Virus record (IMG/VR): IMGVR_UViG_3300032323_003775
Span: 1 to 29,657 of that record
Source: a virus
Strand: one strand, 5' to 3'
Length of the DNA stretch: 29,657 nt
The notes beneath the pieces are model-generated. The model saw nothing but the letters and a program-made list of their open reading frames with translations, ran no database searches and was not told where the DNA came from. Positions 2,496 through 29,657 of this stretch are shown piece by piece (positions within the stretch are counted from its first letter, which is position 1; each line of letters starts with the position of its first letter). The translations under genes were made by a program, and so were the position numbers.

Positions 2496-2527
2496 TTGGC
2501 TTTCTACAATATCTTTATTATATTTAG
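2496..2527 (+). promoter_or_regulatory. Predicted Bacteroidota-type promoter ahead of the groES-groEL unit
   Basis: TTG at 2496-2498 is followed by exactly 20 nt and then TATATTTAG at 2519-2527. This matches the spacing and boxes of the repeated promoters later in the window and the known -33/-7 pattern of Bacteroidota. It lies in the 56-nt gap between the clamp and the next gene, so it would allow separate expression of the small gene at 2551 and of groES-groEL. Confidence 0.55.
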
Positions 2528-8008: not shown

Positions 8009-8070
8009 CCTTTAGTATATATTTATAATATATAAGTATATTAATATTCACTAAAACAATTATTTAAATT

Positions 8071-18162: not shown

Positions 18163-18194
18163 TTTGGATTCCTGAGTTTTTCCTTTTATATTTA
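18163..18194 (+). promoter_or_regulatory. Predicted promoter after the glycan cassette
   Basis: TTTG at 18163-18166 is followed by exactly 20 nt and TATATTTA at 18187-18194, the same grammar as the repeated promoters. It falls in the 59-nt gap before the gene at 18217, leaving a leader of roughly 15 nt. It would drive the zinc-protein block separately from the glycan genes. Confidence 0.5.
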
Positions 18195-18216
18195 TAAAAA
18201 GTTAAAAAGGTTACAT

Positions 18217-18573
18217 ATGAATCTAACAATTAAAAAAACAAAAACAATGGAAATGATCCCTTGTTCTAAATGTGGCAACGACATGCCTGAACTTAGAAAA
18301 ATGAAATTTGGATACGACTTTTGTATCCAATGTTCAGACAAATATAATCTAATAGGTAAAAAAAGAGCAATTACTGTTCAAATGGGAGAAGGTGACCATA
18401 CTTGGAATGAAACTATTATCATGAGTGAGAAAGATTTTCTAGAGTATGAAAAGCAAGAAGAATTAGCTTTACAATTAATAGGAAAAAAGAAAGCTCATAA
18501 AGCTGAATTTCTTTCTTTTGATGGGGAAACTCCTATTTCAGATAAATTAGTTGTCAATTCTAGAGAAGACTAA
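18217..18573 (+). CDS. DksA/TraR-type zinc-finger protein
   Basis: 118 aa. A four-cysteine finger, C16-x2-C19 and C36-x2-C39, encloses GNDMPELRKMKFGYDF, the CG-x-(I/M)P-x-x-R layout of the DksA/TraR finger. DksA-type proteins bind the RNA polymerase secondary channel through a coiled coil before the finger, but here the finger is N-terminal and no coiled coil precedes it, so that role should not be assumed. The rest has VQMGEGDHTWNETIIMSEKDFLEYE, a conserved-looking segment of unknown role. An alternative start is the ATG at 18247. Confidence 0.8.
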   Translation: MNLTIKKTKTMEMIPCSKCGNDMPELRKMKFGYDFCIQCSDKYNLIGKKRAITVQMGEGDHTWNETIIMSEKDFLEYEKQEELALQLIGKKKAHKAEFLSFDGETPISDKLVVNSRED

Positions 18574-19866: not shown

Positions 19867-19885
19867 CTTTTTGCAGAAAGCCTCT
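19867..19885 (+). repeat. 19-nt direct repeat, copy 1 of 2
   Basis: CTTTTTGCAGAAAGCCTCT is identical to 21425-21443. In both copies it ends exactly 33 nt before the -7 box of a promoter. Here it also forms the left arm of the terminator hairpin. Confidence 0.9.
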
Positions 19886-19913
19886 CGCGAAATGGTAGGC
19901 TTTCTGCTTTTTT
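19873..19913 (+). terminator. Rho-independent-type terminator after the small basic protein
   Basis: GCAGAAAGCCT (19873-19883) pairs perfectly with AGGCTTTCTGC (19897-19907) over 11 bp around a 13-nt loop, followed at once by six T (19908-19913). It ends the block that begins at 18217 and overlaps the promoter for the next one. Confidence 0.85.
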
Positions 19914-19927
19914 GTTCGTAAATTTAC
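19896..19927 (+). promoter_or_regulatory. Repeated phage promoter, copy 1
   Basis: The -7 box TAAATTTAC is at 19919-19927, preceded by GTTCG and followed by ATTGTTGA, as in copies 2 and 3. The -33 position holds TAG rather than TTG (19896-19898), so this is the weakest -33 box of the set. Transcription should start near 19933, about 25 nt before the gene at 19958. Confidence 0.75.
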
Positions 19928-19957
19928 ATTGTTGAAAAATTAAGAAATATCAAAACT

Positions 19958-20239
19958 ATGAGAAATAAAAATCAATCAATTTATAGAGCAATAGAAGAAT
20001 TGCGTAAAATGAGTAACGCCGGACTAATTGACGGAGATGATTTTTTGCTTATATTCCTTAGACTAAAGAATCAACTCCAACCAGAACAATCACTTCCTTC
20101 TTCACTAACATTAGCAGATTTGGAATGTTATGATTTCCAATATTATGTAGGTCACATTGCTGATATGGATGGAGACGGATGGGTTAACCAAGAAACAGCA
20201 GAATTAGTTTTGTTAGAATATAATGCAGGTGTAAGATGA
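19958..20239 (+). CDS. Small protein with an EF-hand/dockerin-like loop
   Basis: 93 aa, the first gene after promoter copy 1. Two N-terminal helices (IYRAIEELRKMSNAG, GDDFLLIFLRLKNQL) lead to HIADMDGDGWVNQETAELVLLEY. DMDGDGWVN there matches the first nine positions of an EF-hand or dockerin calcium loop, and the following helix fits, but position 12 is Thr instead of an acid. Calcium binding is possible, not secure. It overlaps the next gene by ATGA. Confidence 0.65.
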   Translation: MRNKNQSIYRAIEELRKMSNAGLIDGDDFLLIFLRLKNQLQPEQSLPSSLTLADLECYDFQYYVGHIADMDGDGWVNQETAELVLLEYNAGVR

Positions 20240-20565
20240 TAAAATATAAACATACACATTCACATTTACCCCCAGTTTTATTTACTTCCATTTTTAATGG
20301 TAAAAAATATATTGTACCTGGATGGAAAGAAGTACACCCCAATACTACAATGGAAAACATTGAATGGGTAAAAGAAAAAGTAGTAGTTAAAAAAACAGAA
20401 ATTGAAACATTCGAGTTCCCATCCTCAAGTGGTAGTGAAGTTTATATTGCTAAAAAATATACTAACCCCAATGGATCTATTAAATTCAGTTGCAATTGTC
20501 CTGGTGTATGGCGTTCAGCTGATAGAAGATGTAAACATATAAAATCATTAGAAATAAATGGCTAG
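20236..20565 (+). CDS. SWIM zinc-finger protein
   Basis: 109 aa. The C-terminal FSCNCPGVWRSADRRCKHI has C86-x-C88, then C99-x-H101, which is the SWIM pattern CxC-xn-CxH. SWIM domains occur in DNA- and protein-binding contexts (SWI2/SNF2-associated, MuDR transposases, plant kinases) and in many small phage proteins. The N-terminal part (PVLFTSIFNGKKYIVPGWKEV) is strand-rich and unknown. It overlaps the gene before (ATGA) and after (8 nt). Confidence 0.8.
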   Translation: MIKYKHTHSHLPPVLFTSIFNGKKYIVPGWKEVHPNTTMENIEWVKEKVVVKKTEIETFEFPSSSGSEVYIAKKYTNPNGSIKFSCNCPGVWRSADRRCKHIKSLEING

Positions 20566-20791
20566 ATCAAGCGAAAGACTTAAAGCATCAGTTGGAGTAG
20601 TATTTACAACTTCTACCCAAGCAAACCCTAAATATAAAATTAAGGTATTCAAAAATAAAACAGTAGATGAATTGTTAGACTGCAATTTTGATACACCTGG
20701 TATCCCTCTAAAAGCGGATATTAAAGAAATGGTAGTGGGAGATAATCTTATAAATATGCTAAAAACAAAGTATAAGATTAAAGCTTCTTAG
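20558..20791 (+). CDS. Small hypothetical protein, 77 aa
   Basis: Not recognised. It opens with a basic ARSSERLKASVGVVFTTSTQ segment, then KYKIKVFKNKTVDELLDCNFDTPGIPLKADIKEMVVG. It overlaps the SWIM gene and is followed by a 13-nt gap and a small membrane peptide. Expression is probably from promoter copy 1. Confidence 0.55.
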   Translation: MARSSERLKASVGVVFTTSTQANPKYKIKVFKNKTVDELLDCNFDTPGIPLKADIKEMVVGDNLINMLKTKYKIKAS

Positions 20792-20804
20792 TATTTATTA
20801 TAAA

Positions 20805-20894
20805 ATGTTTGCTTCTACTCTCATCTCACTTTTATGTCTTATTGTAGTAATATCTATAATAAAAAAAAGACAAGAAAAACGAATTAATTGGTAA
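20805..20894 (+). CDS. Small single-span membrane peptide, 29 aa
   Basis: The ATG at 20805 opens a frame encoding FASTLISLLCLIVVISII (residues 2-19), an uninterrupted hydrophobic stretch, followed by the positive tail KKRQEKRINW. That is a classic N-out, C-in single-span layout. It fills the gap between two clear genes and ends 4 nt before the next start. Phages carry such peptides as holins, antiholins or superinfection factors, but no role can be assigned. Confidence 0.6.
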   Translation: MFASTLISLLCLIVVISIIKKRQEKRINW

Positions 20895-20898
20895 TCTC

Positions 20899-21423
20899 AT
20901 GAGTAAACTATCAACAAATCTAGTACCTATTTTAGAACAATTACTTGTAAAAGAAATTGGTGAAGCAAGCATTCCTCCTTTAAAATGGGAACAACTAACC
21001 CCTACTAGATTTAGATTTGAAATTTACATTGAAGATGAATTTAACTATGTACAAGTAGAATTTGAAAGAGGTGGGGACGCTGCAAAAGAATTTTTTCTCC
21101 CACCTGCTTACAGAAATGTAAGATCTTTTTATAATGTAGGTTTTGATATTGATGGAACTGAAACCCAATACGCAAAAACTAAACTAAAAACCCTATTACA
21201 AATTATGTCTACAATGGTAGATATAGTGAAGTTTTTTATAAAAACTAGACAACCTGATGCCTTATCTTTTATGGCTACAGAAAAAAATAGGGATAGTAAT
21301 AATATGCAAAAATCAAACTTATATCAGGCATTTATAAAAAAAGGAATAAGCTCTATACCAGGTTATACTAGTGATACTTATAGAGATTCTTATCTTGTTG
21401 TAAAAAATTCAATATCCCGCTAA
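20899..21423 (+). CDS. Phage protein of unknown function
   Basis: 174 aa. FRFEIYIEDEFNYVQVEFE is a pair of strands near residues 38-56. YNVGFDIDGTETQYAKTKLKTLLQIMSTMVDIVKFFIKTRQPDALSFMA (83-131) is a strand and long helix that looks conserved. SIPGYTSDTYRDSYLVV closes the domain. I recall relatives in other large phages without known function. It ends the unit driven by promoter copy 1, with promoter copy 2 directly downstream. Confidence 0.7.
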   Translation: MSKLSTNLVPILEQLLVKEIGEASIPPLKWEQLTPTRFRFEIYIEDEFNYVQVEFERGGDAAKEFFLPPAYRNVRSFYNVGFDIDGTETQYAKTKLKTLLQIMSTMVDIVKFFIKTRQPDALSFMATEKNRDSNNMQKSNLYQAFIKKGISSIPGYTSDTYRDSYLVVKNSISR

Positions 21424-21424
21424 A

Positions 21425-21443
21425 CTTTTTGCAGAAAGCCTCT
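21425..21443 (+). repeat. 19-nt direct repeat, copy 2 of 2
   Basis: CTTTTTGCAGAAAGCCTCT is identical to 19867-19885 and lies at the same distance from its promoter. Here the right arm of the hairpin is not conserved, so no perfect terminator stem forms. Confidence 0.9.
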
Positions 21444-21452
21444 TGCTAAAAA

Positions 21453-21485
21453 TTTGGCTACCCGAGAAACCGTTCGTAAATTTAC
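21453..21485 (+). promoter_or_regulatory. Repeated phage promoter, copy 2
   Basis: TTTG at 21453-21456 (written TTTGG), 20 nt, then TAAATTTAC at 21477-21485, followed by ATTGTTGATTTAAAA, the same as copy 3. Transcription should start near 21491. The leader carries ATGGTTATG, in which the second ATG (21532) is the likely start. Confidence 0.85.
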
Positions 21486-21531
21486 ATTGTTGATTTAAAA
21501 CGGATACAAAAACAAAAAAAAAATAATGGTT

Positions 21532-21753
21532 ATGGAAAAGCAATTACTACACACCTGTCTTTACAAAGCAAAGCAGTCTTTCAAATTAGGAAATGAAGAA
21601 TCAGCTCGTGATTTTTGCGACTTAGGAATCGCTTATATTGCTGACAAGAGATTAGACGGATATGGTCCTGAAGATTTGATTGAGGGAATTAAAGTGGATT
21701 TGTGGTTGGAAAGATTTTGGATGTTTTTGGAAAATAAAAATTTGTTAATGTGA
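21532..21753 (+). CDS. Small hypothetical protein, 73 aa
   Basis: First gene after promoter copy 2. I chose the ATG at 21532 over 21526 because GGTTATG precedes or includes the start of at least four other genes here. The protein is all-helical (LLHTCLYKAKQSFKLGNEES, then ARDFCDLGIAYIADKRLDGY), with spacing that suggests one TPR-like helix pair, not provable from one copy. It ends in an aromatic WLERFWMFLE helix. Its stop overlaps the next ATG by one base (TGATG). Confidence 0.6.
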   Translation: MEKQLLHTCLYKAKQSFKLGNEESARDFCDLGIAYIADKRLDGYGPEDLIEGIKVDLWLERFWMFLENKNLLM

Positions 21754-22058
21754 TGGGAGAAAAGAGAGGTAATACCGGAAAATTAGAAAATCCGTATAAC
21801 GATAATGGTGTTCTAGAAGTATACCATGAAGAAATAGAACAGTGGATTAGAGTAACTTCTCGAGAATTTAGATCTTGGGGAGGAAAAAGAAGAATAACAG
21901 AGTATAGATATCCCTATAGACAACCTACGGAGATAAATATTTATGAATATACGGGTCCCGTATTTGAATATCTTACAAATAAAATTATAAATAAACCAAG
22001 TAAGGGAGTGAATGGATCTCGTCCCCAAACTAAATCTACATACAGTGAAAGAATTTGA
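21753..22058 (+). CDS. Hypothetical protein, 101 aa
   Basis: The ATG at 21753 follows the previous stop (TGATG overlap); a GTG at 21750 would add one residue. The protein has VLEVYHEEIEQWIRVTSREFRSWGGKRRITEYRYPYRQPTEI (about 19-60), a strand-rich segment with many aromatic and arginine residues, then a helix and a basic tail. A polar, nucleic-acid- or protein-binding role is possible; no family was recognised. Confidence 0.6.
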   Translation: MGEKRGNTGKLENPYNDNGVLEVYHEEIEQWIRVTSREFRSWGGKRRITEYRYPYRQPTEINIYEYTGPVFEYLTNKIINKPSKGVNGSRPQTKSTYSERI

Positions 22059-22062
22059 ATTT

Positions 22063-22302
22063 ATGAAAGGTGAAATAGAAGTAAGCAAAAGAAAAGCTGC
22101 ATTCACTGAACTAAGAGACTGGTGTGTAATGTCTGTTGGTTCTAAAACAGAAGATAGAGGGGATTTTATTGAAGTAACTGAATGGTCTAATGGAGAAGGA
22201 TATGATATTTTCATTTCAGATGGTTCAGGAGAAAGACAATTTAATCTAACCTGGGGTCAATTTGAAGCGCTTAAAGCATGTATAAAAAAAATAGATAAAT
22301 AA
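22063..22302 (+). CDS. Small phage protein, 79 aa
   Basis: I prefer the ATG at 22063, 4 nt after the previous stop; an in-frame ATG at 22012 would add 17 residues and overlap the previous gene by 47 nt. The C-terminal half, DFIEVTEWSNGEGYDIFIS followed by FNLTWGQFEALKACIKKI, has the look of a small alpha/beta phage protein family (EW-x-NGEGYD then an F-L-x-x-x-x-F-x-A-I/L helix). Function unknown. Confidence 0.65.
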   Translation: MKGEIEVSKRKAAFTELRDWCVMSVGSKTEDRGDFIEVTEWSNGEGYDIFISDGSGERQFNLTWGQFEALKACIKKIDK

Positions 22303-22303
22303 A

Positions 22304-22453
22304 ATGGAAGTCAGAACATTAGAATCAGACACACGAATGCGATTTTTATTAGGAAATAATCCTATGGGGGAGATGATAAAAATTGTATCAAAAGAGTGTA
22401 AAAAAATTGAAAAAAAGAAAGGTTATGGAAAACAAACCCAAAACAAAGGATAA
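22304..22453 (+). CDS. Small hypothetical protein, 49 aa
   Basis: The ATG at 22304 follows the previous stop by 1 nt and the frame runs to TAA at 22451, overlapping the next gene by 29 nt. The sequence starts EVRTLESDTRMRFLLGNNP and ends with a lysine-rich helix. It fills what would otherwise be a 122-nt gap in a tightly packed region. Real-gene status is likely but not certain. Confidence 0.5.
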   Translation: MEVRTLESDTRMRFLLGNNPMGEMIKIVSKECKKIEKKKGYGKQTQNKG

Positions 22454-23105
22454 TAGACCTTTGAGTCAAAAAGTAGGATATTTTTTAGAAGGACTACTAT
22501 TTTGGAAAGGTAGACCTAAGGGAATGATTTATACTAGAGATATAGATTTGGATGATATTCGTGGAATATTTCTTCCAGATGGTTTTGAGGAAAAGTATAG
22601 TTATTTAGGATCTGTTCCTTATAATGAAGATAGTGAGGTATTTAAAGCTATGTATCCACTTGTTTTGGCTATGGATTATGAAGCTAAACCTAAATGGTGT
22701 CCAAGGTGGTTTTTGAGATTCTTACATTTGTTTGGTAACGATAAATCAATTGTTAGAGTTAGAAACTTTACCTTACATAAACTGCATAGAAAGTTAACTA
22801 AAGGCATTATGTTGATTGATTATAAGACTAAATGGGAATGGTATGATTTAAGAATTTCTATTTCAGCTCCTAAACATTTACAAGATCTAGCAAGCGCAAT
22901 TGAAAACGATTTCTACTCTAGGGGTAGACAAGAGGAGATTGCTGAAAAGATATTAGAGCTAGATCCTAAAGCAAGTATTATTTGGGGGAGTGTTGATAGA
23001 CTTATTAAGAAGTATAATGAACTTGTAGATAAGAAATCAAAGCAGAATAAATCTCTCAAAAAAATGATGGAAGAAGATGAAGACCTGGGTTTATATGATA
23101 ATTAA
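22425..23105 (+). CDS. Phage protein of unknown function, 226 aa
   Basis: The start is the ATG at 22425 within the GGTTATG context; an upstream in-frame TTG (22383) would add 14 lysine-rich residues and is unlikely. The central region, KPKWCPRWFLRFLHLFGNDKSIVRVRNFTLHKLHRKLTKGI (about 88-128), is aromatic and basic; IDYKTKWEWYDLRISISAP follows. The C-terminal third is a charged helix ending in acidic residues. I recall similar proteins in other phages without a known role. Confidence 0.65.
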   Translation: MENKPKTKDNRPLSQKVGYFLEGLLFWKGRPKGMIYTRDIDLDDIRGIFLPDGFEEKYSYLGSVPYNEDSEVFKAMYPLVLAMDYEAKPKWCPRWFLRFLHLFGNDKSIVRVRNFTLHKLHRKLTKGIMLIDYKTKWEWYDLRISISAPKHLQDLASAIENDFYSRGRQEEIAEKILELDPKASIIWGSVDRLIKKYNELVDKKSKQNKSLKKMMEEDEDLGLYDN

Positions 23106-23390
23106 ATGGAATATTATTTATTAGTTTTAATCTTTCAGATATTATTTAATATTTTCAAAGTATTAGAAATAAAATATACTTATGAGAATAAACTTAGGTT
23201 ATTATTATTTAATTCTGTTTATATAAATTTAATTTCTTTAGCATCCGTTTATTGGTCACTTGACCTGTTATTTGCGGGAGATTGGTGGGTTATTCCTTTT
23301 TATATAGGAGGTAGTGTATTAGGAAAGTGGATTGCAATGACACAGGTAGAAAACATAAGACATAACATTTATAAATTATTTGGAAAATAA
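23106..23390 (+). CDS. Small multi-span membrane protein
   Basis: 94 aa starting directly after the previous stop. Hydrophobic stretches at about residues 3-20 (YYLLVLIFQILFNIFKVL), 32-50 (LLLFNSVYINLISLASVYW) and 55-72 predict two or three membrane helices. The tail IAMTQVENIRHNIYKLFGK is polar. The spacing resembles small phage membrane proteins of the DUF5698 kind, but I cannot confirm that. It lies just upstream of thymidylate synthase and two genes before the lysozyme. Confidence 0.65.
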   Translation: MEYYLLVLIFQILFNIFKVLEIKYTYENKLRLLLFNSVYINLISLASVYWSLDLLFAGDWWVIPFYIGGSVLGKWIAMTQVENIRHNIYKLFGK

Positions 23391-23394
23391 AAAT

Positions 23395-24375
23395 ATGAAC
23401 AATATCGATAGACAGTATCAAAATCTCCTAAAAGACATCTTAGATAATGGTGTAGAAAAAAAAGATAGAACTGGAACAGGCACTATCTCAGTATTTGGTA
23501 GACAAATTCGCCATAAAATGAGTGAAGGATTTCCTTTACTTACAACAAAGAAAATGGCATGGAAAACAATGGTAACAGAATTGATTTGGTTCTTGCGTGG
23601 AGATACCAATATCAAATACTTAGTTGACAATGGTTGCCATATTTGGGATGGGGATGCTTATAAAAACTACGCAGCCAAAACATCTCTTGATGCAGATGGA
23701 CAATTTACAAAAGAAGAGTTTATCAAAGAAATTAAAACCAATAATGAATTTGCTAAACAATGGGGTGAATTAGGTCCTATCTATGGTAAACAATGGAGAA
23801 AATGGAATTACCAAAGTAAAAAGAATCATTATGTTATGGCAGGTCAACCTACTCATTATAACATTAACATTGATCAAATTATAAATCTAATTTCTGAACT
23901 TAAATCAAATCCTGATAGTAGAAGATTGATGGTGTCAGCTTGGAATGTTGGGGAAGTGGAGAAAATGGTTCTTCCACCTTGCCATTATGGGTTTCAAGTT
24001 TATACTAAAGAAAAAGAAGGTAAACGGTATATTTCTCTAATGTGGAACCAACGTTCAGTAGATACATTCTTAGGATTACCATTTAATATTGCTTCCTATG
24101 CTTTGCTATTAGAGATTATAGCTAAGGAAGTAAATATGATACCTGATGAAATAATTGGGAATTTAGGGGATGTTCACTTATATTTAGATCATATTGAACA
24201 AGCAAAAGAACAAATCAGTAGAAAACCATTTGATTTACCTAAATTAAAAATGAATCCTATATTCTTAGCTAATTTGGAACATAAATCATTTGATGAAGCT
24301 ATTAATGGAGAAGTTAATTTTGAATTAGAAAATTATCAATCACATCCTGCTATTAAAGCACCTTTATCTAACTAA
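23395..24375 (+). CDS. thyA: Thymidylate synthase
   Basis: 326 aa from the ATG at 23395, preferred over the in-frame TTG at 23380. It methylates dUMP to dTMP using methylene-tetrahydrofolate. Visible residues: R25 in DRTGTGT, LIWFLRGDTN (63-72), catalytic C196 in LPPCHYGFQVY, the paired arginines SRR (175-177), and N231 in FLGLPFNIASYALL. That Asn selects dUMP, whereas dCMP hydroxymethylases carry Asp there, so this enzyme makes ordinary dTMP rather than a modified base. Two insertions, near 95-120 and 138-155, make it longer than the E. coli enzyme (264 aa). It serves DNA synthesis along with the replisome. Confidence 0.96.
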   Translation: MNNIDRQYQNLLKDILDNGVEKKDRTGTGTISVFGRQIRHKMSEGFPLLTTKKMAWKTMVTELIWFLRGDTNIKYLVDNGCHIWDGDAYKNYAAKTSLDADGQFTKEEFIKEIKTNNEFAKQWGELGPIYGKQWRKWNYQSKKNHYVMAGQPTHYNINIDQIINLISELKSNPDSRRLMVSAWNVGEVEKMVLPPCHYGFQVYTKEKEGKRYISLMWNQRSVDTFLGLPFNIASYALLLEIIAKEVNMIPDEIIGNLGDVHLYLDHIEQAKEQISRKPFDLPKLKMNPIFLANLEHKSFDEAINGEVNFELENYQSHPAIKAPLSN

Positions 24376-24378
24376 ATT

Positions 24379-24675
24379 ATGACATACGAAAATTTTTCAA
24401 ATATAGTAGAAACATTACAAAAACAAAGTGATTTGATAAGTGATTTGTATACTAAGAAGGTAGACCTACTTGAGTTTTCAGATCCTTATGATGCTATCAT
24501 TCGTATTCTATTAACAGAAGTTTATACTGCAGAAGGTTATGATTGGTTTACTTGGTTCTGTTATGAAAATGATTTTGGAACAGGTACACTAGATGCTAAT
24601 GATGAAAATGGACCTATCTGCTATGATGTAAAATCTCTTTGGGAATTCTTAGAAACTAACTATAATAAATCATGA
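24379..24675 (+). CDS. Conserved-looking phage protein, 98 aa
   Basis: The C-terminal half is acidic and aromatic: VYTAEGYDWFTWFCYENDFGTG, then NGPICYDVKSLWEFLE. The motif order W-WF-YE-D ... PICYD-SLWE-LE occurs in many phage proteins of unknown role. It overlaps the lysozyme gene by ATGA. Confidence 0.65.
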   Translation: MTYENFSNIVETLQKQSDLISDLYTKKVDLLEFSDPYDAIIRILLTEVYTAEGYDWFTWFCYENDFGTGTLDANDENGPICYDVKSLWEFLETNYNKS

Positions 24676-25211
24676 GAAGATTCTTAATTTTACTTACACT
24701 ACTTACTTTTATTACAGGTACTATAGGTGTCTCTAAATCTACAGAAGATAATCTTAGACTCTTAATAGAAGAGTTTGAAGGTATTAAGTTGAAAGCTTAT
24801 AGATGTCCTAAAGGAATACCTACTATAGGAATTGGATCTACTAGATATGATGATGGAAGTAGAGTTAAATTAGGAGATGAAATATCTCTTGACTATGCTG
24901 AAGTGTTGTATGAAAGAGAAGTAGATAAAGTAAGAAAGGAAGTTGATCAATTAGTTATTCCTAATCTAAATAAAAACCAAGAAGATGCTTTAGTTAGTTT
25001 TGCTTACAATGTAGGTATTACTGCTTTTAAATCTTCAACTTTATTAGAAAAAGTGAATAAAGATCCAAGAAGTAATTCCATAAAAAGAGAATTTATGAAA
25101 TGGACAACTTCAGGTGGTAGAAAACTTCAAGGACTTGTTAAAAGAAGAAAAGCAGAAGTTGATTTATATTTCTTAAAAACACCAAACTATGCAAGTAGTT
25201 CTAACTCTTAG
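24672..25211 (+). CDS. Endolysin, GH24 (T4-type) lysozyme with N-terminal signal
   Basis: 179 aa. Residues 1-20 (MRRFLILLTLLTFITGTIGV) form a positive start and hydrophobic stretch, a signal peptide or signal-arrest-release anchor. The catalytic region LLIEEFEGIKLKAYRCPKGIPTIGIG gives E36, C45 and T51 with spacings of 9 and 6, the same as T4 lysozyme E11/D20/T26 but with Cys for Asp. The T4 D20C mutant is known to stay active, and natural E-C-T enzymes exist. NQEDALVSFAYNVG (about 96-109) is the conserved second block. It cuts peptidoglycan for host lysis; export through the host Sec system would make it holin-independent or holin-triggered. The C terminus overlaps the next gene by 23 nt. Confidence 0.93.
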   Translation: MRRFLILLTLLTFITGTIGVSKSTEDNLRLLIEEFEGIKLKAYRCPKGIPTIGIGSTRYDDGSRVKLGDEISLDYAEVLYEREVDKVRKEVDQLVIPNLNKNQEDALVSFAYNVGITAFKSSTLLEKVNKDPRSNSIKREFMKWTTSGGRKLQGLVKRRKAEVDLYFLKTPNYASSSNS

Positions 25212-25425
25212 TAAAGATATTGTCCCACACATAGCAGATTTGATACTTGGTGGAAAACTTGAGGGAGGTTATTCAATTGACTATGCTCTAAATGCACTTG
25301 TATCATCTCTAAACGGAAAAGAAATTGTTATTTACAATTTCACAAAATATTTTTGGTTGGACAATAGATGGAGTGGATATAAGATTGATAATTATGGAAC
25401 AAAAATAGTAATAAACTTTATTTAA
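25189..25425 (+). CDS. Small hypothetical protein, 78 aa
   Basis: It overlaps the lysozyme end by 23 nt in another frame. The sequence starts QVVLTLSKDIVPHIADLILGG, then a helix (SIDYALNALVSSL) and a strand-rich half with YFWLDNRWSGYKIDNYG. No family was recognised. A role beside lysis is possible from position only. Confidence 0.55.
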   Translation: MQVVLTLSKDIVPHIADLILGGKLEGGYSIDYALNALVSSLNGKEIVIYNFTKYFWLDNRWSGYKIDNYGTKIVINFI

Positions 25426-25428
25426 TAA

Positions 25429-25665
25429 ATGCTACACTTAGAAGAAAAAGTAAAAGATCAAATTTACAATATAATTTTAAAATCAAATGGTATTATAGTA
25501 GGTGAGTTTGTTAAAGTAGACGGGTTCTATTATTTTGCTGAAAATGATAGTAGAACTTGGGGATTGTGGTCAGAAGAGTTTTTAAAGAGTTTGGTATCTG
25601 AATTAGAATTACTAAACAAAGAAGCAAATGATGTCATAAAAGCAGATTACATAAATTTTCAATAA
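25429..25665 (+). CDS. Small hypothetical protein, 78 aa
   Basis: It starts 3 nt after the previous stop. A strand-rich core (NGIIVGEFVKVDGFYYFAEND) is flanked by an N-terminal helix and a longer C-terminal helix (EEFLKSLVSELELLNKEA). Not recognised. It ends this unit; a 37-nt gap precedes the phosphoesterase. Confidence 0.55.
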   Translation: MLHLEEKVKDQIYNIILKSNGIIVGEFVKVDGFYYFAENDSRTWGLWSEEFLKSLVSELELLNKEANDVIKADYINFQ

Positions 25666-25702
25666 ATGATAATCTACTAAATTCATATTTATTAGAAAAA
25701 AT

Positions 25703-26398
25703 ATGAAAAAAATTGAAGCGTTATTTTTATCAGATATTCATTTAGGTACTAAGGGTTCAAATGCTGACGGAGTAGTAGATATTCTAAAGCAATTTAATCC
25801 TAAGTACCTATTTTTAGTAGGGGATATTATAGATGGGTGGATGCTAAAAAGAAAATTTAGATGGTCTCAATCTCATACTAATGTTATAAGAAAAATGTTA
25901 TCATACTCTAAAAATGGAACCAAAATAATTTATATTCCCGGGAATCATGATGAATTTATGAGAAATTATATTGGGTTAACTTTTGGCAGTGTAGAAATAC
26001 ATAATGAATATATTTGGAAAGATACTCTAATAACTCATGGGGATTTATATGATGGGGTAGTTCAGTTAAAGTGGTTAGGTATACTTGGATCTATAGGATA
26101 TGATTTAGCTATTTCAATAGATAGATTTTTAAAAAAATGGGGTGTTAGAAGATCATTATCTAAATACTTAAAATCAAAAGTAAAAGAAGCAATGAAATTT
26201 ATAACACAATATGAAATGGAATTAGTGAGGCAAGCTAAAAATAATAAATGTTCAAATGTAATATCGGGTCACATTCATTATCCTGAAGATAAAATGATAG
26301 ATGGGATAAGATATTTGAATTGTGGAGATTGGATAGAAAATAATTCTTATATAATTTACAATAAAGGAAAATATAATGTTCACAAGTTTAAAGGATAA
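25703..26398 (+). CDS. Metallophosphoesterase, UDP-2,3-diacylglucosamine diphosphatase (LpxH)-like
   Basis: 231 aa. The five calcineurin-type motifs are in order: D11 and H13 (LSDIHLG), D41 (VGDIID), N81 and H82 (PGNHDEF), H112 (THGD), and H190 with H192 (SGHIHYP). The helical insert (about 120-175) and the closing NCGDWIENNS match the LpxH/LpxH2 group, which removes UMP from UDP-2,3-diacylglucosamine in lipid A synthesis. Related phosphoesterases also sit beside glycosyltransferases with other substrates. The next gene overlaps by 23 nt and is a GT2, so the two probably form one surface-glycolipid module. ATA codons are very frequent by eye, suggesting a different origin from the replication genes. 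Confidence 0.85.
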   Translation: MKKIEALFLSDIHLGTKGSNADGVVDILKQFNPKYLFLVGDIIDGWMLKRKFRWSQSHTNVIRKMLSYSKNGTKIIYIPGNHDEFMRNYIGLTFGSVEIHNEYIWKDTLITHGDLYDGVVQLKWLGILGSIGYDLAISIDRFLKKWGVRRSLSKYLKSKVKEAMKFITQYEMELVRQAKNNKCSNVISGHIHYPEDKMIDGIRYLNCGDWIENNSYIIYNKGKYNVHKFKG

Positions 26399-27101
26399 AG
26401 TAACTATTGTAATTCCTACCTACAACGAAGAAAAGTATATAGGAAAAACTATAGAAAGTATAAATTCCCAAGAAGGAATAGAAGGAATTAATGTGGTAAT
26501 AGCAGATGGAGATAGTACAGATGATACTATAAAAATTATTAAATATTATCAATTCCAATGTAAAAAACTAAAAATAAAAATTATTAAAGGGGGGAAGGTA
26601 GCTAGAGGAAGAAATAATGGATCAAATTATGTAAAAACTAAATATACTCTATTTCTAGATGCAGATAGTACACTAATAGAAAAAGATAATATAAAATACA
26701 ATATAGAAAAAATGGAAAGAGATAACTTAGATCTCTTAACATGTCAAATAAAAGATACATCTGGGGATATAAAATCAAAAGTAGTTTTTAGTTTATTTAA
26801 TATAATTAACAGAATATTATCATCCAAAACTCCATTTGCCATAGGGGGATATTTTTTAACAGATACTTATAGATTTAGAGGAAATGGAATGTTTAATGAG
26901 CAAGTAACTACTTCTGAAGATTATTTGTTGTCAAAAAAATATAGCAAAGATAAATTCCATATCAGTAAAAAATACTATGGGCAGGATAACAGAAGATTTA
27001 AAAAAATGGGATATTTCAAAATGATAAAACTTTTGTTAGATAATTACAAAAATAGAAATAATATAGAACATTTTAAAAAAGAAGTTGGATATTGGGACTA
27101 A
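26376..27101 (+). CDS. Glycosyltransferase, GT-A fold, family 2
   Basis: 241 aa. VTIVIPTYNEEKYIGKTIESI (9-29), VVIADGDSTDDT (40-51) and YTLFLDADSTL (90-100), with DADS as the metal site, are standard GT2 motifs. NEQVTTSEDYLLSKKY (about 174-189) holds the catalytic-base ED region. No membrane anchor is evident. The start lies inside the end of the LpxH-like gene, so translation is coupled. Like its partner it is extremely AT-rich. A terminator/promoter element follows. Confidence 0.92.
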   Translation: MFTSLKDKVTIVIPTYNEEKYIGKTIESINSQEGIEGINVVIADGDSTDDTIKIIKYYQFQCKKLKIKIIKGGKVARGRNNGSNYVKTKYTLFLDADSTLIEKDNIKYNIEKMERDNLDLLTCQIKDTSGDIKSKVVFSLFNIINRILSSKTPFAIGGYFLTDTYRFRGNGMFNEQVTTSEDYLLSKKYSKDKFHISKKYYGQDNRRFKKMGYFKMIKLLLDNYKNRNNIEHFKKEVGYWD

Positions 27102-27123
27102 ATTGAAGTATTTTCAAAAAATG

Positions 27124-27139
27124 CGCGAACTGTTTAGCG
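27124..27139 (+). promoter_or_regulatory. Inverted repeat upstream of promoter copy 3 (operator-like)
   Basis: CGCGAA-CTGT-TTAGCG, an inverted repeat with one mismatch. It ends 19 nt before the -33 TTG, the same distance as the matching elements at 28004 and 29598. Confidence 0.6.
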
Positions 27140-27149
27140 AAAGTTCCCT

Positions 27150-27176
27150 GCCGAAAGCTTGGCTTTCGGCTTTCTT
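27150..27176 (+). terminator. Terminator hairpin overlapping promoter copy 3
   Basis: GCCGAAAGC (27150-27158) pairs with GCTTTCGGC (27162-27170), 9 bp around the 3-nt loop TTG, followed by TTTCTT. It ends the LpxH/GT2 transcript. The loop is the -33 box of the promoter, so both signals share sequence. Confidence 0.75.
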
Positions 27177-27190
27177 GTTCGTAAATTTAC
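27159..27190 (+). promoter_or_regulatory. Repeated phage promoter, copy 3
   Basis: TTG at 27159-27161, 20 nt, TAAATTTAC at 27182-27190, then ATTGTTGATTTAAAAA. The segment from GGCTTTC to GTTGA differs from copy 1 at only two or three positions. Transcription should start near 27196, with GGTTATG of the next gene about 15 nt on. Confidence 0.87.
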
Positions 27191-27214
27191 ATTGTTGATT
27201 TAAAAATAACGGTT

Positions 27215-27403
27215 ATGAAAAAATTAGATGAATTAGTAAAGGGTAAGAGTTATATACACGTTAGTTACTATGGTAATGTTAGAACTACATTTAGGTATAT
27301 AGGTAAAACGGATTCAAAAACACACACTATCGTTATATTAGATGGTAAAGAAGAAGGAGTTAAATCATTCCTTATTCCAACAGATCAAATTATTGAATAT
27401 TAA
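27215..27403 (+). CDS. Small hypothetical protein, 62 aa
   Basis: First gene after promoter copy 3, with GGTTATG at the start. The sequence is strand-rich: SYIHVSYYGNVRTTFRYIGK, then THTIVILDGKEEGVKSFLIP, resembling a small SH3-like or barrel fold. Not recognised. Confidence 0.6.
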   Translation: MKKLDELVKGKSYIHVSYYGNVRTTFRYIGKTDSKTHTIVILDGKEEGVKSFLIPTDQIIEY

Positions 27404-27421
27404 TATAAAAAAATAAAGGTT

Positions 27422-27706
27422 ATGAACAAAACTGAAATTAAAAGACAAATCAATTATCGATTCTATCAGTACGTAAATAATAATTTTCCGGAATATGAAA
27501 TTGATGGTGGGGAAGGAAATGGAAGAATATATTTAGTACCAAAAGAAGGTGATAATAGAGGTGATAATTCGATTGAATATCATCAATCCAGACATGATTT
27601 AGTTTGTTTTAATTGGGCATCTAAAAAAACACATGAAGACGTAGCTAAAATGCAATCTTATGTCTCAAATAATATTATTCCATTTATAACCTTATGTCTT
27701 AAATAA
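27422..27706 (+). CDS. Small hypothetical protein, 94 aa
   Basis: It carries AAAGGTTATG at the start, like the first genes of the promoter-led units. The protein has a basic N-terminal helix (KTEIKRQINYRFYQYVNNNF), then YEIDGGEGNGRIYLVPKEGD and a C-terminal helix. Not recognised. It shares the unit of promoter copy 3. Confidence 0.6.
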   Translation: MNKTEIKRQINYRFYQYVNNNFPEYEIDGGEGNGRIYLVPKEGDNRGDNSIEYHQSRHDLVCFNWASKKTHEDVAKMQSYVSNNIIPFITLCLK

Positions 27707-27710
27707 TATT

Positions 27711-27974
27711 ATGACACAACAAACAGCAGTAAATAACTTACATGAATGGTTTTGGTTATTCAAACACAAACTTGTAGATGATTATCCTGAATATAGTAAA
27801 ACATTTGATTATATAATAGGGAATGCAGATGGAGATGGTGTATTGTACGAAGTAATGGAATTTGCTTATAGATACTTGCAAGTAGAAGCAGCATTGAGAG
27901 GTGGAGAAGATAATCTAACCATCACTAACTATTTGAAAGCTTTAGATTATGGGTATGACGAATGGAAAAAATAA
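27711..27974 (+). CDS. Small hypothetical protein, 87 aa
   Basis: All-helical and aromatic: NNLHEWFWLFKHKLVDDYPEY, then GNADGDGVLYEVMEFAYRYLQVEAALRGG. The DADGDG-like stretch (NADGDGVLYE) is acidic and glycine-rich, similar in look to a calcium loop but without the full pattern. It ends the unit; promoter copy 4 follows. Confidence 0.55.
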   Translation: MTQQTAVNNLHEWFWLFKHKLVDDYPEYSKTFDYIIGNADGDGVLYEVMEFAYRYLQVEAALRGGEDNLTITNYLKALDYGYDEWKK

Positions 27975-28003
27975 AATTCTGTTTGAAAAACCTGCAAAGA
28001 GCG

Positions 28004-28019
28004 CGCGAACTGTTTCGCG
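28004..28019 (+). promoter_or_regulatory. Perfect inverted repeat upstream of promoter copy 4 (operator-like)
   Basis: CGCGAA-CTGT-TTCGCG, 6-bp arms with a 4-nt centre and no mismatch. It ends 19 nt before the -33 TTG. GC-rich against its AT-rich surroundings. Confidence 0.65.
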
Positions 28020-28038
28020 AATGCTCCTTGCGTCTTGC

Positions 28039-28070
28039 TTGGTTTCCTGAGGGATTCAGCGTAGATTTAC
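28039..28070 (+). promoter_or_regulatory. Repeated phage promoter, copy 4 (diverged)
   Basis: TTG at 28039-28041, 20 nt, TAGATTTAC at 28062-28070, then AGTGTTGA. The boxes and spacing are kept while the spacer sequence differs from copies 1-3. Transcription should start near 28076, giving a leader of about 70 nt before 28145. Confidence 0.8.
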
Positions 28071-28096
28071 AGTGTTGAGTGTTTAAGGTTCAATTG

Positions 28097-28115
28097 ATAT
28101 AACACGGTGTTATAT
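28097..28115 (+). promoter_or_regulatory. 19-bp palindrome in the leader of promoter copy 4
   Basis: ATATAACAC-G-GTGTTATAT, perfect 9-bp arms around one base, about 20 nt after the predicted transcription start. It could be an operator for a dimeric repressor or an RNA hairpin. No T-run follows directly, so it is not a clear terminator. Confidence 0.65.
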
Positions 28116-28144
28116 TATATAATAAAAAATAAATAATAATGGTT

Positions 28145-28912
28145 ATGAAAAGTGTAATTAAAAATCAAATCAAAGAAGTAGAACAAAAATTATCATTTTT
28201 AGATCAAAAAAGAGAGGGTATTGATAAAGTTTATCAAGATCTAGAAGTAGCATTTATTACTCCATTTCTAGAACAATATAATATCTTATCTGAAGAATAT
28301 TTTTTGAAATATTCATATAACTCATTTAGTATCAATGCTCTAAGAGATGGTATCTATAGAGAAGAGTTAGTTAGTTTTAGAATTCATGAACCATCCTATT
28401 CTTTTGGAGAAGAAAAAGAGAAAGTTATTTCAACTTCTTTCTATTCTACAAATTCAAATAGTGATTTTGAATTAAATAGAATGGTTATTGTTGGTAAAAT
28501 AGGTCAAATGTTACTTGATAATAAAAGTAATATTATTGCAGGATGGAATGAATTGAATAAAAAATATGGTTCTGAAATAAAAGAAACTAATAATGAAGTA
28601 TATGCTCTAGAAAAGGAACTAAGAGAACTAAAATTATCTCTAAGAGAAATTGAAAAAGAAGAAATGTATAATATCCTTAGTGAAGGAGTACATTTCAAAA
28701 TGGATGATTTTGTAACATTAGATATTAATAATAAAGAATCTAGATATCTCTCTTATATTAAATTGTTATCTACTAAAAATAAATCAGTAGTTGTAAAATA
28801 TATTGGTCATAGAAATGAAGATTTTACTACAGCAACTGTTAGATTGATGCATTTAGAAAGATTTATTATTAGATATTCTAATCTACTAGCTCCAAAAGAA
28901 GTATTAGCTTAA
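28145..28912 (+). CDS. Coiled-coil protein of unknown function, 255 aa
   Basis: I chose the ATG at 28145, the second in ATGGTTATG, to match the other GGTTATG starts; 28139 would add two residues. Coiled-coil helices are predicted at about 3-30 (IKNQIKEVEQKLSFLDQKRE) and 150-180 (NEVYALEKELRELKLSLREIEK), with a strand-rich domain between and another at the end (SVVVKYIGHRNEDFTTATVRLMHL). No enzyme motif is seen. The single larger gene of the early region. Confidence 0.65.
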   Translation: MKSVIKNQIKEVEQKLSFLDQKREGIDKVYQDLEVAFITPFLEQYNILSEEYFLKYSYNSFSINALRDGIYREELVSFRIHEPSYSFGEEKEKVISTSFYSTNSNSDFELNRMVIVGKIGQMLLDNKSNIIAGWNELNKKYGSEIKETNNEVYALEKELRELKLSLREIEKEEMYNILSEGVHFKMDDFVTLDINNKESRYLSYIKLLSTKNKSVVVKYIGHRNEDFTTATVRLMHLERFIIRYSNLLAPKEVLA

Positions 28913-28941
28913 TATATTATAAAACTTAAATATAAAAAACT

Positions 28942-29100
28942 ATGGTTACTGAAATTATTCGAAAAGTATTTAATATTAATTCTGAAAGAATTAATCGTGA
29001 TGGTGATCTAAAACCTACAGGTGTAAAATATACTATTAGGGGGGATTATGGGTTTAATGAAACATTTGAACATATTTTTAGGGAACGACTAAAGAGCTAA
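28942..29100 (+). CDS. Small hypothetical protein, 52 aa
   Basis: The frame runs from ATG at 28942 (TATGGTTACT context) to TAA at 29098. It reads VTEIIRKVFNINSERINRDG, then PTGVKYTIRGDYGFNETFEHIF. Position, spacing (29-nt gap before, 2-nt gap after) and amphipathic pattern support a real gene. Not recognised. Confidence 0.55.
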   Translation: MVTEIIRKVFNINSERINRDGDLKPTGVKYTIRGDYGFNETFEHIFRERLKS

Positions 29101-29102
29101 AT

Positions 29103-29255
29103 ATGAAAACTGAAAGAGATATTCTAGTATTAATTTCCGAGTTGGAAATGTGGATTTCACGTATTAAAAGAGAAAATCCTATTGAAGGCGCTAATGCTAT
29201 ATTGATAGTAAATGAAAAAATTAATGTGCTAAAATGGGTGCTAGATGATATTTAA
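29103..29255 (+). CDS. Small helical protein, 50 aa
   Basis: ATG at 29103 to TAA at 29253. Two helices, ERDILVLISELEMWISRIKR and ANAILIVNEKINVLKWVLDD, form a likely helical hairpin. It overlaps the next start by 11 nt. Not recognised. Confidence 0.55.
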   Translation: MKTERDILVLISELEMWISRIKRENPIEGANAILIVNEKINVLKWVLDDI

Positions 29256-29385
29256 AGAATATGATCAAGCAGTTATATACGCTGCTCTAAATGATATAAA
29301 AGGTTATCATGTAGCAGGGAATAAAAAAGGTGGTTGGTTAATACTAAAAGGGAATAAAGTAGTAAAAATAAAATGTCTAAACTAA
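29245..29385 (+). CDS. Small hypothetical protein, 46 aa
   Basis: ATG at 29245 inside the end of the previous gene, to TAA at 29383. It reads YDQAVIYAALNDIKGYHVAG, then GGWLILKGNKVVKIKCLN, a helix followed by two strands. It overlaps the next start by 13 nt. Confidence 0.5.
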   Translation: MIFKEYDQAVIYAALNDIKGYHVAGNKKGGWLILKGNKVVKIKCLN

Positions 29386-29552
29386 AAAAGGGAGATACAG
29401 TACGATTTCCATTTGCTGGGACTATTCATATAGGTATATTTGAAGGTATTACAGAGGTAGAATATGGTTCAGTAAAGAGAACTTACTATAAATGCAAAAC
29501 AGCAGAAGGTACTGTGTATCCTGTTGACAAGTCTTTAGTAAGTAAAATTTAA
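29373..29552 (+). CDS. Small SH3-like protein, 59 aa
   Basis: ATG at 29373 to TAA at 29550. The pattern KKGDTVRFPFAGTIHIGIFEGI, then RTYYKCKTAEGTVYPVDKS is that of a small five-stranded barrel (KOW or SH3-like), where GD-V-F/W opens strand 1. Similar proteins are common in phage early regions. Function unknown. Confidence 0.6.
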   Translation: MSKLKKGDTVRFPFAGTIHIGIFEGITEVEYGSVKRTYYKCKTAEGTVYPVDKSLVSKI

Positions 29553-29597
29553 ACTAACAATTTTTTTAAATTTTTTTTGAAGCAATTTCAAGAAACA

Positions 29598-29657
29598 CAC
29601 AAACTGTTTCGCGAAAATTCCATGTAATTTTGTTGGAGAACTGAGGAAGCGTTCGTA
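29598..29657 (+). promoter_or_regulatory. Repeated phage promoter, copy 5, cut by the window edge
   Basis: CACAAA-CTGT-TTCGCG (29598-29613) keeps the right arm of the upstream inverted repeat. TTG is at 29633-29635, exactly 19 nt on, and GTTCGTA at the window end places the first two bases of the -7 box 20 nt after TTG. The rest of the -7 box lies outside the window. Confidence 0.75.

Follow-up and report, generated by a model that had tools for sequence, protein, structure and literature searches.

The window, by which we mean the whole 29,657-bp stretch analysed here (IMG/VR virus record IMGVR_UViG_3300032323_003775), carries a family of promoter-like sites with the fixed form TTG-N20-TA(A/G)ATTTAC. 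We consider it probable that these sites are early promoters of a large T4-type Bacteroidota phage, carried in mobile, insulating cassettes of about 100 bp, of which copies have spread along a variable region of small genes. In the literature searched, no promoter family of this kind is described for Bacteroidota phages.

Exact matches to the pattern are found at 21454, 27159 and 28039. Copies 2 (21454..21493) and 3 (27159..27198) both read TTG-N20-TAAATTTAC ATTGTTGA, and copy 4 (28039..28078) reads TTG-N20-TAGATTTAC AGTGTTGA; these, the other copies and the dyads, blocks, hairpins, single-copy sites and small-ORF region located below are on the + strand. Copy 1 (19896..19934) has TAGG at -33, followed by GTTCG, TAAATTTA at -7, C and ATTGTTGA. 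It thus has TAG instead of TTG, and its orthologues in four contigs likewise have TAGG. Copy 5 (29633..29657, TTGGAGAACTGAGGAAGCGTTCGTA) is cut by the contig end after GTTCGTA, and has complete counterparts in related contigs (G004 38511, G005 1884, G006 3281 and G007 11172). The first-pass annotation had reported all five sites as a promoter family with fixed geometry, and all are present. It had also described shared bases after the -7 box. ATTGTTGA is indeed common to the sites at 19896, 21454 and 27159, but the site at 28039 has AGTGTTGA instead. In Flavobacterium johnsoniae, transcription starts 4-5 nt past the -7 element (PMC6847099). With this geometry, the starts that had been proposed at 19933, 21491, 27196 and 28076 shift upstream by 1-2 nt, to predicted positions 19931-19932, 21489-21490, 27194-27195 and 28074-28075.

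A loose form of the consensus is weak, with 174 matches at 3 mismatches against 168 expected, and cannot be told from chance. The full sites are a different matter. A 44-column matrix built from related contigs, with the window left out, gave 42.4, 56.4, 48.6 and 52.5 bits for copies 1 to 4, against 5.0 bits for the next-best site in the window and a maximum of 4.4 bits in 15 shuffled windows. A chance origin of the sites in the window is thereby rejected. The relatives used for training include orthologues, so that the matrix test is not fully independent and the scores are evidence of family membership more than an independent surprise. Independent support comes from the count of sites: the specific form of the pattern occurs in 14 IMG/VR stretches from nine contigs, nearly all of them with multiple copies. 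The clade comprises 70 sites in ten contigs, 66 of them outside the window in nine related IMG/VR contigs, and 63 of the 70 have TAA or TAG boxes. Copy numbers are 9-10 in G001, a 112,983-bp contig related to the window by its GroEL protein (99% identity), and at most nine in the shorter contigs.

The placement of the sites is as regular as their sequence. All 70 are on the coding strand and none is on the opposite strand, and an open reading frame (ORF) starts within 80 nt downstream for 68 of 69. The four complete sites of the window are all located in the intergenic 4% of the sequence, if a spurious 38-aa ORF over 28039 is disregarded. The scan proposed in the first-pass annotation confirmed an enrichment ahead of small gene clusters. 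The TTG is separated from the box by exactly 20 nt in all 46 clade boxes that have a TTG, which bears out the strict spacing noted in the first-pass annotation; the exceptions to the spacing are the TAGG orthologues of the 19896 site and two coding matches. As a control, a scan with 17 instead of 16 unspecified positions (spacing 21) returned single-copy matches only.

The conserved unit is larger than first reported. Twenty-six nonredundant cassettes can be aligned without gaps from about -60 to +40, counted from the TTG. They begin with a dyad TTGNAA-N3-TTNCAA at -56..-42, followed by a block CGCGNAACTGTTTNGCGAAAGNTCC..GC at about -37..-9, TTGG at 0, TTCGTARATTTAC at 19-31 and ATTGTTGA at 32-39. 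The upstream distances are fixed and the length of the leader is variable. In the window, the dyad is found as TTGTAAAAAATTCAA at 21398..21412, TTGAAGTATTTTCAA at 27103..27117, TTGAAAAACCTGCAA at 27983..27997 and, for the cut copy 5, TTGAAGCAATTTCAA at 29577..29591. The upstream block, ungapped in the 26 nonredundant copies, is present as GCGCGAACTGTTTAGCGAAAGTTCC at 27122..27150 and as GCGCGCGAACTGTTTCGCGAATGCTCC at 28002..28030. The claims that the promoter family has a fixed geometry and that constant bases extend beyond the minimal promoter consensus are well supported. The ten copies of G001 alone show the same profile, and the conservation is therefore not a matter of orthology only.

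Within a genome, the copies are very similar along 100 bp and have leaders in common, as would be expected if the similarity were due to recent duplication only, with no selection on the sequence. However, TTGG, CGTANATTTA and GTTGA have remained fixed, in contrast to parts of the spacer, which have diverged. The same core and spacing also recur in the best match by GroEL among cultured phages (58.6%), Flavobacterium phage immuto (Immutovirus), whose cassettes otherwise differ. An explanation by duplication only is therefore scarcely credible. It is also very improbable, though slightly less so, that the repeats serve chiefly in recombination or replication, or as operators for a phage regulator, rather than as promoters. 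Such roles would suit the perfect palindrome GTAAATTTAC of many copies, the upstream dyads and the swapping of genes at the repeats. They do not account for the strict orientation with transcription, the location just ahead of start codons, the bipartite TTG-N20-TA form with its poorly conserved spacer, or the occurrence of the same core, without the upstream dyad, at single-copy sites ahead of operons.

Two such single-copy sites of the TTG-N20-TATATTTA class are present in the window and had been overlooked in the first reading. One (2496..2527, TTG-N20-TATATTTAG) is located in a 56-bp gap before an ORF at 2551, with the GroES and GroEL genes next. The other (18164..18195, TTG-N20-TATATTTAT) precedes a gene for a DksA-like zinc-finger protein at 18217; the member of this gene family in the more distant contig G010 is preceded by TTGG..TTCGTATATTTAC. 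Most sites outside the variable region, these two among them, have the TATATTTA box and lack the upstream block.

The phage immuto has an analogous family of 23 intergenic copies ahead of small genes, all 23 with the TTG at 20 nt. This family was found in the present analysis and is absent from the annotation of the record. The immuto sites resemble those of the clade in having the TTG exactly 20 nt before TATATTTA or TATCTTTA and in a similar gene order, but differ in the downstream constant bases, which are mostly GGTATCAATAATTAAAAC, and in the lack of ATTGTTGA. In other viral contigs (L207, L220, L269, L261 and L238), the multi-copy family takes a form of its own, TTGGAGAAGC..TTCGTATATTTAC, and GGGGTAAATGAGGCGCGAAGCC frequently comes after it.

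Between one and about nine small ORFs come after each cassette. In the window, 27215..29552 is the start of the region of small ORFs that the cassettes would serve, with gene families f5-f7 and f0-f4. Among the relatives, this region has conserved flanks (ThyA, f30, f31, f5-f7 and f0-f4 on the left; f57, f17, f37 and f18-f22 on the right), and the families between the flanks differ from contig to contig in their order and in the cassette that precedes them. Cassettes and genes have been reassorted in this hyperplastic region: 29 pairs of cassettes have leaders with an identity of at least 90% but unrelated first proteins, although some pairs share loci, so that they do not represent 29 independent events. 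In the converse case (G004 4401 and G007 13199, in oriented coordinates), the gene and the upstream block are the same and the leaders are different, which puts a switch in or near the promoter core. Homologous recombination between the cassettes, which are alike, would swap small genes and keep them expressed, and may have caused the shuffling. The first-pass annotation had missed this reshuffling, together with the larger cassette and the hairpins of the leaders.

Among known systems, the cassettes appear closest to the promoter-terminator cassettes of phage T4, the PeSLs, which are reportedly composite motifs of T4-like phages. Going by the available descriptions of PeSLs, the likeness lies in repeated intergenic promoter units, some copies of which have a stem-loop, in their density among small variable genes, in the shuffling of genes at the units among relatives, and in the T4-type phage background. 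Many near-identical intergenic copies, a hyperplastic small-gene location and gene exchange with breakpoints at the cassettes are all found here. The combination of a stem-loop and a promoter in each copy is found less regularly: hairpins are strong at 19896, at 27159 and in a minority of copies elsewhere, and weak in most. By the same descriptions, the cassettes differ from PeSLs in that the promoter is TTG-N20-TANATTTA and not of the E. coli sigma-70 type, in a hairpin that extends over the promoter spacer and is strong in a minority only, and in the additional leader hairpins.

One strong hairpin of the window, GCAGAAAGCC..GGCTTTCTGC followed by T6 (19873..19913), is terminator-like (-19.3 kcal/mol, z -4.3; 200 shuffles gave none as stable). 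In the 19896 promoter, the right arm and the T-run of this hairpin fall within the spacer that separates the -33 position from the -7 box. A second terminator-like hairpin, GCCGAAAGC-TTG-GCTTTCGGC followed by TTTCTTG (27150..27177; -14.6 kcal/mol, z -4.0), has the -33 TTG in its loop. Of 156 sites from a wider IMG/VR scan, 19% had spacer hairpins with z < -2; in control windows 80 nt upstream, the figure was 7% (p 0.002). L287, L295 and L240 have full hairpins with the -33 element in an arm or the loop and a T-run that ends at the -7 box. Strong hairpins are confined to a minority of cassettes, with z < -1 in nine of the 23 of immuto, and a universal intrinsic terminator in the cassette is thus unsupported. 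In many cases, the leader folds into one hairpin or two. In the window, leader hairpin 2 of copy 4 (TGATATAACA-CGG-TGTTATATTA, 28095..28117) has ten pairs, of which two show changes on both sides among the relatives.

It is less straightforward to say which polymerase reads the sites. The first-pass annotation had held that the boxes fit the housekeeping consensus of the host. Bacteroidota housekeeping promoters (-33 TTTG, -7 TANNTTTG, sigma-ABfr type) are similar to the phage sites in the TTG near -33, the TA..TTT at -7, the compatible spacing and the AT-richness. In F. johnsoniae, G at -5 is nearly invariant, G at -10 or -9 is virtually absent and the -33 element is weak (PMC6847099). In contrast, the phage sites have A at -5 in all 63 intergenic clade matches, obtained with a search pattern that left this base open, and G at -10 in 33 of the 70 clade sites; their spacing is strict and their -33 element strict and strong. 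Of the features tested for the host class, only the TTG near -33 is shared, since G at -5 and the lack of G at -10 and -9 are not found. As tested, the phage sites are not members of the host consensus class, and the earlier assignment does not hold. In immuto, A is found at -5 in 35 of 39 plus-strand matches.

In 99 Bacteroidota genomes, TTG-N20-TANATTTGC was found 521 times against 201 for the control, a 2.6-fold excess, whereas TTG-N20-TANATTTAC, with 359 against 343, was not in excess. These genomes were drawn from the phylum of one of five genomes, mostly Bacteroidota metagenome-assembled genomes, in which the TTTGC form was enriched (220 against 25) and the TTTAC form was not (76 against 107); the comparison is thus one with the phylum rather than with the true host of the phage. 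The host RNA polymerase, possibly in a modified form, may nevertheless read the sites.

A related alternative is that the cassettes are read by a form of the polymerase that the phage specifies, either f21 with the host core or a host sigma factor retargeted by a phage factor. The A at -5 and the strict TTGG would then be its signature, and the sites would be middle rather than early promoters. The bases at -5 and -10, including the A in most immuto matches, and the lack of a genome-wide excess of the TTTAC form agree with this proposal, as does the sigma-like character of f21, a conserved 233-aa protein of the relatives that is encoded downstream of the variable region (L007 8300-9001, G001 109104-109805). 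The evidence that f21 is a sigma factor is weak throughout. It consists of a weak match to phrog_234 in the relatives, a Sigma70_r2 match at an E-value of 0.038, and Foldseek matches of which all 50 listed are sigma factors or RNA polymerase-sigma complexes, none of them significant (E ≥ 0.095). The predicted structure of f21 is of low confidence (pLDDT 55), which counts against the proposal. A profile comparison of f21 with T4 gp55 yielded nothing, but the gp55 text was apparently misread, and this is no evidence of absence; a search with phrog_12791 gave no match either, but was uninformative because no control matched. Moreover, f21 is located in a unit that follows a TTGG promoter (G001 105856), and another factor must therefore read that promoter first. 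Finally, a gp55-like factor would be better suited to a separate, late-type motif. Altogether, we regard a phage-specified polymerase as rather unlikely, but as the most serious of the alternatives.

The late-type motif, TATTTATAA(T/C)AAA, is found in G001, G010, G011 and immuto, a few to about 40 nt before ATG and without a -33 element. It is a candidate late promoter. Its strand bias is 23:1 in G010, 14:4 in G001 and 22:6 in G011, and it precedes other genes than the TTG class, including the structural genes of immuto. The TTG class is therefore taken as a non-late class, and a role of its sites as late promoters was rejected. In the window, TATTTATAA occurs at 8020 and at 18189, where it overlaps the 18164-18195 site ahead of the DksA-like gene. 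In its two classes of promoter, its sigma-like phage protein and its short, separate motif of late type, the system is reminiscent of the early, middle and late cascade of T4; it differs in that the late-type motif is TATTTATAA and that the match of the sigma-like protein to gp55 is only weak. We infer that the order is T4-like: the TTG class, including the unit with f21, would be read first, and f21 would then serve the late-type motif.

If the sites are early promoters in insulating cassettes, as we favour, each cassette would end the upstream unit, in a minority of copies through a terminator-like hairpin of which the right arm and the T-run occupy the space from the -33 to the -7 box. From the TTG-N20-TANATTTA promoter, a new transcript would then start 4-5 nt past the -7 box; many copies would give the mRNA hairpins close to its 5'-end, which may stabilise it, ahead of a GGTTATG start. 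Several points weigh against this model. At -5 and -10, the -7 box does not follow the host consensus. The early timing is suggested just by the type of gene and by the separate late-type motif. Most copies lack a strong hairpin with a T-run, and the clade cassettes have a mean z of only -0.7. Covariation in the leaders amounts to two pairs, and the fold of the 28039 leader of the window is no more stable than those of shuffled sequences, so that the case for leader structure has to come from the relatives.

The genomic setting is probably that of a T4-type phage. The window has a G+C content of 30% and genes almost wholly on the + strand. They include the end of a family B DNA polymerase gene, GroES and GroEL, a T4-type clamp loader, glycosyltransferase-type genes, thymidylate synthase and an endolysin; GroES and thymidylate synthase were assigned from translations and from synteny with immuto. 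The GroES and GroEL of the phage itself (2846-4752) are close to those of many aquatic viral contigs. G010 and G011 (119 and 139 kb) are distant relatives, with GroEL identities of 77-79%. Of T4-like replication and capsid genes, the window shows the polymerase end and the clamp loader, and Gp20 and Gp23 are annotated in the distantly related immuto. The immuto annotation also has the order PD-(D/E)XK nuclease, glycosyltransferases, DnaK-suppressor-like and HNH genes, and then many small ORFs. A megablast search of the first 25 kb of the window against phages gave no match, and neither Rfam families nor tRNAs were found in the window. The start context GGTTATG is frequent at gene starts in the window and its relatives, and in G001 GTTATG occurs 66 times on the coding strand against 7 times on the other.

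The swaps of genes at the cassettes among related viruses suggest plug-in expression units like those of phage T4, made for a different kind of host. A more far-reaching possibility, which we put forward tentatively, is that T4-type phages of Bacteroidota have their own class of promoter, TTGG-N19-TANATTTA with A at -5, that is not favoured by the primary sigma factor of the host and is read by a polymerase changed by the phage, and that this class has become part of self-insulating, terminator-in-promoter cassettes, which spread and allow the phages to exchange small genes. If the cassettes are what they appear to be, PeSL-like modular expression cassettes would have arisen, or been retained, in T4-type phages whose host phylum has other transcription signals. 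They would also provide a precise and testable signature for one gene class of uncultured Bacteroidota phages, and the cultured phage immuto and its Flavobacterium host make such testing practical. The consistent A at -5 raises the question of how these phages redirect the host RNA polymerase.

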